64,000 bases of DNA from Acidobacteriota bacterium (GTDB lineage Bacteria > Acidobacteriota > Terriglobia > Terriglobales > Acidobacteriaceae). The notes beneath the pieces are model-generated. The model searched no databases. It was not told where the DNA came from and saw nothing but the letters and a program-made list of their open reading frames with translations. Below, in pieces: positions 11,035 through 12,459 of this stretch (its first letter is position 1; each line of letters starts with the position of its first letter). The DNA lies in assembly GCA_013289795.1 (NCBI GenBank), contig JABCZH010000005.1, positions 186,001-250,000 on the forward strand, written 5' to 3'. The position numbers were made by a program, and so were the translations under genes.

Positions 11035-12459
11035 ATGCGGCCCACGTTCGTCCTCGCCGTTCTCTCTCTCTCTCTCTCTCTCTCTCTCTGTACGTGTCTC
11101 CCTGGGCACGCCCAGACTAGTCCACTTACAGTGGGCGGAGTAATTACGAACCAACTCAGCACGCCTACCGCCGCGCCCACGGTGAAAGTAGTCTGCAGCG
11201 GCGGGACTTCGAGCTACACCTATGTCTACATCGCTATGGACGCCTCTGGAGGCAACACGGGCCAGAGTCCCACGAGCACGTCTGTTTCGGGTTGCACAAC
11301 GTTGAGTGCATCCAATTTCAACATCGTATCCGTGCCAGCTATCAGCGGATCAACGAGCTGTGTGGTTTATCGGACTGCGCCAAGTGTGGTGAACGTCGGG
11401 AGCGTCCCCTGCGGCGGGGCGATCCTGGACGCAACCGCGGGCACGACCACTACTGTTCCTGCCGGGAACAGCACGGGCGGCGTTAACGCGACTGGGACGG
11501 TGAGCGGCCAGAACTTCATCGCCACCGGCACCGGCGCAGGCACAAGCGATTGGGTCGCTGGAACGGCGCTTCCGGCGTGCACTTCTGGAACTCAGCCGCA
11601 ACCTTGCATCCAGACTAACTCGTTTTTCATACAGGCGCCGGGGAGCCCAATTACAACGTTTGGCTGGACGGCGCCATCTGCGACTAACACCGCCGCCGGG
11701 CCCATTATAGCCGGCGCAAGCAGTGGAACCCCGGTCACCTCAGCCCTCAATGTGGGTTTTCTAACTGACACCACGATTAATCTCACCATGTCGCAGCCAA
11801 CGGTCGCGACTGTAACGGGATCGTTGCCCAATGGCGACATTGTAAAAATTTCAAACGCAGGCGCGGGAGCGATTGACCTCGTTGACGCTGCGATATCAGC
11901 AAGCGAGGTGGCTCAACTGAACGCCGCAGAGACGTTTACGGCAGCTCAGACATTCTCGGCGACGCCGGCAGGCGTGATAGCCACCGGACAGGTAAAGGCC
12001 GCGGGGTACGTCGACACGACCATGGGGTACCTAGCCTCCAACATGAGCGCGCAAACATCGACCACGCCCATGAATATCACCGGTATGGCCTGGAACATCA
12101 CCGCGAGCAAGAACTACAGGTTGGATTGCGAAATCGGTGTCACCCAGACCGCCTCAGCTACTGTGGCATTTGAGCTGGCAGGCCCCGGAAGTCCTACCTC
12201 GTACAACCTCATCATGGAGGGGCCTCTTGGTGCCAGCGGCGTCTATAAAGAGATTGGCGTTCTCGCACAGACCTCCTGGGGAGTGTCTACGGGAGCGAGC
12301 ACTAGCTTGACTGCGAGCATCGTAATCCACGTGAAGGCTCAGATTCAGAACAGCACGACGAGCTCGGGGACGCAACTTACCCTGCAAACGGTCGCCAACG
12401 GAACGAACAGCATCACGGTGTTGGCGAATTCGGTTTGCGTATTGACGCAAGCTAATTAA
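11035..12459 (+). CDS. Secreted tail-fibre-like protein with a dinucleotide repeat in its signal peptide
   Basis: This 474-residue protein starts at an ATG 8 bases after GGAG. It has a signal peptide whose hydrophobic core is a run of Leu-Ser repeats encoded by a TC tract, ending near GHAQ. The mature chain is rich in Thr, Ser, Gly and Ala with few charged residues. It contains an AAETFTAAQTFSA segment of the kind seen in phage tail fibres and related surface proteins, and a C-terminal beta-rich region with Cys near the end. I do not recognise a named family. It is the first of three secreted-protein genes on the same strand after tRNA-Ile2. Confidence 0.8.
   Translation: MRPTFVLAVLSLSLSLSLCTCLPGHAQTSPLTVGGVITNQLSTPTAAPTVKVVCSGGTSSYTYVYIAMDASGGNTGQSPTSTSVSGCTTLSASNFNIVSVPAISGSTSCVVYRTAPSVVNVGSVPCGGAILDATAGTTTTVPAGNSTGGVNATGTVSGQNFIATGTGAGTSDWVAGTALPACTSGTQPQPCIQTNSFFIQAPGSPITTFGWTAPSATNTAAGPIIAGASSGTPVTSALNVGFLTDTTINLTMSQPTVATVTGSLPNGDIVKISNAGAGAIDLVDAAISASEVAQLNAAETFTAAQTFSATPAGVIATGQVKAAGYVDTTMGYLASNMSAQTSTTPMNITGMAWNITASKNYRLDCEIGVTQTASATVAFELAGPGSPTSYNLIMEGPLGASGVYKEIGVLAQTSWGVSTGASTSLTASIVIHVKAQIQNSTTSSGTQLTLQTVANGTNSITVLANSVCVLTQAN
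11061..11089 (+). repeat. (TC)14 simple-sequence repeat inside coding sequence
   Basis: Twenty-nine bases of perfect TC dinucleotide lie within codons 9-19 of the secreted protein gene and encode alternating Leu and Ser. Loss of one unit would shift translation into a frame that stops at 11118. Gain of one unit leads to a stop at 11141. The length is in the range where slipped-strand mispairing is common in known phase-variable genes. Confidence 0.95.

Follow-up and report, generated by a model that had tools for sequence, protein, structure and literature searches.

Phase variation has been studied mostly in host-associated bacteria, and Acidobacteria are among the commonest soil bacteria. 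In the opa genes of Neisseria, CTCTT repeats lie within the signal peptide; Helicobacter pylori, for its part, is not known to have canonical mismatch repair. In the account of H. pylori oipA (hopH) on which we draw, CT repeats in the signal sequence set the gene ON or OFF (PMC10564699). For SSR contingency loci in general, those parts of a 2025 review that we cite describe SSRs as hypermutable through slippage and name ocean and soil as knowledge gaps for phase variation (PMC11868660); an earlier note on this DNA had remarked that descriptions of such loci from free-living soil lineages are few, which fits that assessment. A search of the open-licence literature found no papers on phase variation or contingency loci in Acidobacteria or Acidobacteriota.

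We have analysed a stretch of 64,000 nucleotides from a member of the Acidobacteriaceae (the whole of which we call the window) in which the signal-peptide codons of one gene, here the window gene, contain a long TC tract. The likeness to oipA as described comprises a CT tract in signal-peptide codons, an early stop in the OFF frames and an exported product (PMC10564699). Indeed, oipA is the closest known case; the window gene would work alike and is not homologous, and no Pfam or NCBIfam match places the window protein in the H. pylori Hop (OipA) family. The two cases differ in phylum and in the association of H. pylori with a host, and the tract genomes studied here, unlike H. pylori, have MutS1 and mostly MutL. 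The opa genes share with the window gene a repeat in the signal-peptide core and, putatively, a translational switch, but differ in their pentamer unit, in protein family and in being host-associated. The mechanism that we propose, read for the window gene from its sequence, would be that of known SSR contingency loci in a new phylum, and its interest derives from that phylum: random on/off switching probably also occurs in Acidobacteria, which are mainly soil bacteria.

The TC tract and its reading frame

The tract is perfect (14.5 TC copies with 100% matches by TRF; Table 1) and lies in frame in the signal-peptide codons, as the earlier note had it; the two stops given there, at 11118 for one unit less and at 11141 for one unit more, proved exact on script translation. 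Loss of one unit leaves a product of 27 aa and gain of one unit a product of 36 aa, and a change of three units in either direction regains the frame, giving 472 or 476 aa. Two of the features by which a contingency locus is recognized are thus present: a pure SSR whose unit length is not divisible by three lies within a reading frame, and a single-unit change truncates the product, which a three-unit change restores. No second (TC)7 was found on either strand of the window's genome (4,674,986 bases), and (TC)8 gave 0 matches in 100 dinucleotide shuffles of the window.

Table 1. Features at and around the window gene (positions in the window)
Feature	Position	Strand	Basis
tRNA, anticodon CAT, upstream of the window gene	10851..10926	+	ARAGORN: tRNA-Met
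GGAG, Shine-Dalgarno-like, 8 nt before ATG 11035	11023..11026	+	sequence
Window gene ORF (ATG 11035, stop TAA 12457-12459), 474 aa, predicted secreted, ON at 14 units	11035..12459	+	translation
Predicted signal peptide MRPTFVLAVLSLSLSLSLCTCLPGHA, then Q	11035..11112	+	inferred from translation
(TC)14T tract, TC on the sense strand, encodes Leu-Ser repeats	11061..11089	+	sequence, TRF, genome scan, shuffles
TAG, terminates the product after loss of one unit	11118..11120	+	script translation
TAA, terminates the product after gain of one unit	11141..11143	+	script translation
GloVer-repeat protein (TIGR03803), next gene downstream	12526..13779	+	start codon picked by eye

We hypothesize that the window gene is an SSR contingency locus, and consider this the probable reading. 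Slipped-strand mispairing in (TC)14 would add or remove 2-bp units, and the secreted protein would be made only when the number of units leaves the right one of the three frames. The gene reads ON as assembled; in a variant that is OFF, the product would be a peptide of 27-36 aa. An in-frame change within the hydrophobic core, three units corresponding to two residues (Leu-Ser), would be tolerated, and other unit changes would abolish synthesis and export together. That the tract slips, that the change is reversible and that it gives the window gene a phenotype is what we infer from this arrangement. The contingency-locus reading, which the earlier note had also proposed, holds for the layout and is favoured by the ON and OFF states of relatives' genes, a paralogue pair among them; it holds in part only for the window's own tract, which has been observed in one state. 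None of the other genomes drawn for the homologue search and the family scan belongs to its genus.

It might be argued that the Leu-Ser run was selected as signal-peptide sequence, with the DNA incidental and stable. LSLSLS is hydrophobic enough for an h-region, but the nine Leu/Ser codons of the tract alternate CTC and TCT without exception, and with the codon usage of eight window genes the chance of exactly those nine codons given the peptide is 5e-8; the tract is therefore better regarded as a DNA repeat than as the expression of a Leu-Ser peptide preference. Relatives that carry the tract out of frame, and the homologue loci of the beta-propeller-like tract genes described below, 114 of 120 of which do without such a tract, also argue against selection for the peptide, which we find scarcely credible as an explanation.

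The window protein and its neighbourhood

The first 26 residues of the window protein read as a signal peptide of which the tract supplies the hydrophobic core, with cleavage predicted, from the residues G-H-A, before Gln27. The mature protein, rich in Thr, Ala, Ser and Gly, matched no family in Pfam, NCBIfam or PHROG. No homologue was found at E <= 0.001 in 60 other genomes, nor was one found in genome_contigs, viral_contigs or phages. A search of 398 genomes of the family, with at most 4 candidates scored per genome, gave weak partial matches in 9 other genomes; the best two (E 8.7e-5 and 3.3e-4) cover a stretch near the start of the window protein and fall within ORFs, of 778 and 579 aa, that look secreted, and the collections searched yielded no full-length homologue. 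A modular protein, either secreted or at the surface, seems probable. An AlphaFold model made with no alignment has a pLDDT of 35, too low to be of use. The window protein is not a member of the beta-propeller-like tract-gene family, since hhalign against that family (alignment A1 of G013, G010 and G623) gave E = 0.78 and a probability of 0.1; judged by this comparison, the layout is alike and the protein is different.

The earlier note had placed the gene beside tRNA-Ile2. A tRNA with anticodon CAT does lie upstream, but ARAGORN types it as tRNA-Met, and Ile2 (lysidine type) is an assignment that we take to be plausible from sequence features. A promoter scan found none; a TATAGT at 11004-11009 was not counted as evidence. 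A mobile element at the locus was considered and is unsupported, the downstream neighbours being an S1-like gene and an ORF that by eye resembles an ABC-F protein. A possible conserved position beside the tRNA was also considered: the combination of a CAT tRNA near an S1-like gene was absent from the loci of 8 relatives and from 5 longer stretches.

Long tracts in related genomes

(TC)10 was present in 23 of the 398 family genomes, and all 27 distinct tracts were read. In seven of them, judged by eye, the TC strand encodes a signal peptide that belongs to a secreted ORF: those of the window gene (whose genome is G000 in the scans and belongs to the same family as G013 and G010), of five G013 genes and of one G010 gene. 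The other 20 are intergenic or lie elsewhere within genes, and include the GA runs at start codons in G278, G161 and G419 that are taken up below. A scan of the class for (TC)10 preceded by ATG gave 11 loci in 8 of 399 genomes and added two genes of G623, one of G695 and one of G689, all from a second family of the class; the loci of G554, G232 and G012 are not signal peptides. The family and class scans together thus give 11 long-tract signal-peptide genes. In MAGs, such as G013 (340R_metabat_142) and G010 (GL140_6_metabat_77), both titled Acidobacteriaceae, the length at which a tract is assembled may reflect an error of the consensus. When considering such tracts it is important to ask whether their length is an artefact of assembly or sequencing, as dinucleotide runs are error-prone and two of the relatives are MAGs. 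The window's tract, however, is at 29 nt shorter than the usual read, and its length keeps the 474-aa frame open, which error would be expected to do one time in three, so that we regard an artefact as very unlikely.

Whether tracts lie at signal peptides more often than by chance was assessed by a fixed rule. Of the class-scan loci 7 of 11 pass it, compared with 277 among 4000 random insertions (6.9%; P = 2e-6); counted by genome, 4 of 8 pass (P = 0.0013). For G689 the start that passes is not the nearest ATG, and G695, with a poorer signal peptide, fails. Looser rules applied to the 27 family tracts gave 5/27 against 4.1% (P = 0.0045; the window gene was missed by this rule), 7/27 against 12.6% (P = 0.046; by genome P = 0.57) and 6/27 against 7.3% (P = 0.011; by genome 3/23, P = 0.23), with 2/27 passing on the GA strand in each of the last two tests. 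We do not rely on these three tests because their background is too high. Tracts of 7 units or more, found in 29 of 396 genomes in a scan of the phylum, showed no signal-peptide enrichment (2 of 26 loci, P = 0.55; 26 of 30 loci were counted, those of G000, G232, G012 and G013 being already in the class set). The association with signal peptides is one of long tracts only, and much of it comes from G013.

These counts bear on a neutral explanation, according to which a dinucleotide run arises from Leu/Ser codons that are rich in CT and then slips; as signal peptides accept a change of length, the run would mutate and be tolerated but would not be selected as a switch. The tracts of 7 units or more, which are not enriched at signal peptides, are consistent with this view, as are the 20 of 27 long family tracts that sit elsewhere, whereas the over-representation of long tracts at signal peptides in the class scan speaks against it.

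States were called from every ATG, GTG and TTG that lies no more than 100 nt upstream and from which the frame runs as far as the tract. Among the 11 long-tract genes, tract lengths differ and both states occur: the window gene and G013-C54 are ON, six are OFF from every start considered (G013-C28, G013-C29, the G010 gene, both G623 genes and the G695 gene) and three depend on the start (G013-C15, G013-C37 and G689, of which G689 is ON from its nearest ATG and G013-C37 OFF from its ATG). Of the three frames behind each long tract, two are closed within 49 codons, whereas the remaining one stays open for 147-767 codons. In the six OFF genes it does so for 618-767 codons, and these genes are therefore intact apart from phase. 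Thus the relatives' genes include ON and OFF alleles of the same layout, a further feature of contingency loci. The G013-C37 gene (L042) carries a further break, with 147 codons open behind its tract; in the other phase the frame from the ATG ends at 169 aa and is followed by an ORF of 397 aa.

The short-tract genes of the phylum scan, which by eye resemble signal peptides, are OFF from the nearest ATG in G784, G768, G925 and G884 and ON in G1004, and are kept outside the main argument because under the fixed rule that scan does not exceed chance. The G1004 gene (L295) encodes a NamZ exo-beta-N-acetylmuramidase, with its short TC tract in a lipobox-like leader. Read from the nearest ATG, all 16 genes comprise 4 ON, 11 OFF and 1 ambiguous, a count compatible with free phase, in which one third would be ON.

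That the share of ON genes (4/16, or 5/16 with the ambiguous gene) is near the third expected of random phase also suits the neutral explanation. Against it stand the long open frames retained by the six OFF genes, and the persistence of the tracts in homologues of 25-58% identity across genera, for a longer time than a pure run free of selection would be expected to last. We therefore think it unlikely that the tracts are neutral microsatellites, although of the alternatives considered here this is the one to be taken most seriously.

Homologous tract genes and further tracts

Among the evidence for the reading that we favour, switching by slippage in a contingency locus, are seven tract genes (four from G013, one from G010 and two from G623) that were retrieved by the repeat alone and are homologous, with 25-58% identity to one of their number, across three genera and two families. 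The protein family to which they belong is common: genome_contigs yielded 147 relatives, of which 80 were kept, and the window's genome itself gave 11 strong matches. The tract is absent from 114 of 120 inspected homologue loci, ten G000 loci among them, and present in 6, all in G013, G010 and G623; the 120 are the 80 kept, with 250 nt upstream of the match, and 40 whole loci, and the two sets may overlap. The many tract-free loci suggest that the tract is a lineage-specific addition which is not needed for export. An AlphaFold model of the family from 12 sequences (pLDDT 69, pTM 0.82) matched beta-propeller proteins in Foldseek at low TM-score, and this suggests the term beta-propeller-like, to be understood as a fold class and not a function.

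Two of the G013 genes, C28 (L040) and C54 (L096), form a paralogue pair whose DNA is identical over the 32 nt that precede the tract, half of which (16 nt) are coding, and over the 51 nt that follow it. The sole difference in that stretch is the tract, of 14 units in C28, which is OFF, and 10 units in C54, which is ON. With the leaders identical and the tracts differing, the change in tract length, and with it in phase, would have come later than the copying of the leaders, which was presumably by duplication or conversion. The wider leader region of 265 nt is 89% identical and the proteins are 53% identical, a disparity that points to recombination or conversion of the leader. The 14- and 10-unit pair is a ready-made test system.

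All 11 tract genomes have a MutS1 above cut-off, and 9 also have such a MutL, the window's genome included in both cases; the two genomes with no MutL above cut-off are 85% and 88% complete. As mismatch repair by MutS1 and MutL dampens dinucleotide slippage, switching may be slower in these genomes than in H. pylori. If the switch is real in free-living members of the phylum, immune evasion would be an unlikely driver, and phages, protists and surface attachment become testable candidates.

Three species of a single genus carry a GA tract at the same place within a gene for a Type ISP restriction-modification enzyme, with lengths of 46 nt (L291, G891:C1), 42 nt (L290, G1072) and 74 nt (L292, G1029). 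In L291 a single frame of 1016 codons is open across the two halves of the gene (ISP_coupler, N6_Mtase, Type_ISP_C), and in L290 and L292 the halves are out of frame, so that this looks like a phase-variable enzyme.

More tentatively, and at rather less than an even chance, we suggest that the Acidobacteriota have an undescribed phasome, in which signal-peptide TC tracts would switch a recurring set of secreted envelope proteins, beta-propeller-like ones and others, with as many as five such genes in a single genome, leaders and tracts would be common to divergent paralogues, and GA tracts would switch the Type ISP enzyme. If that is true, soil bacteria would gain a stochastic diversity of surface and defence that has hitherto been documented chiefly in bacteria living with hosts. 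In G278 (L012), G161 (L026) and G419 (L030) there are also GA tracts, 27-34 nt long, immediately before a start codon or at it, where they resemble a Shine-Dalgarno region of variable length.
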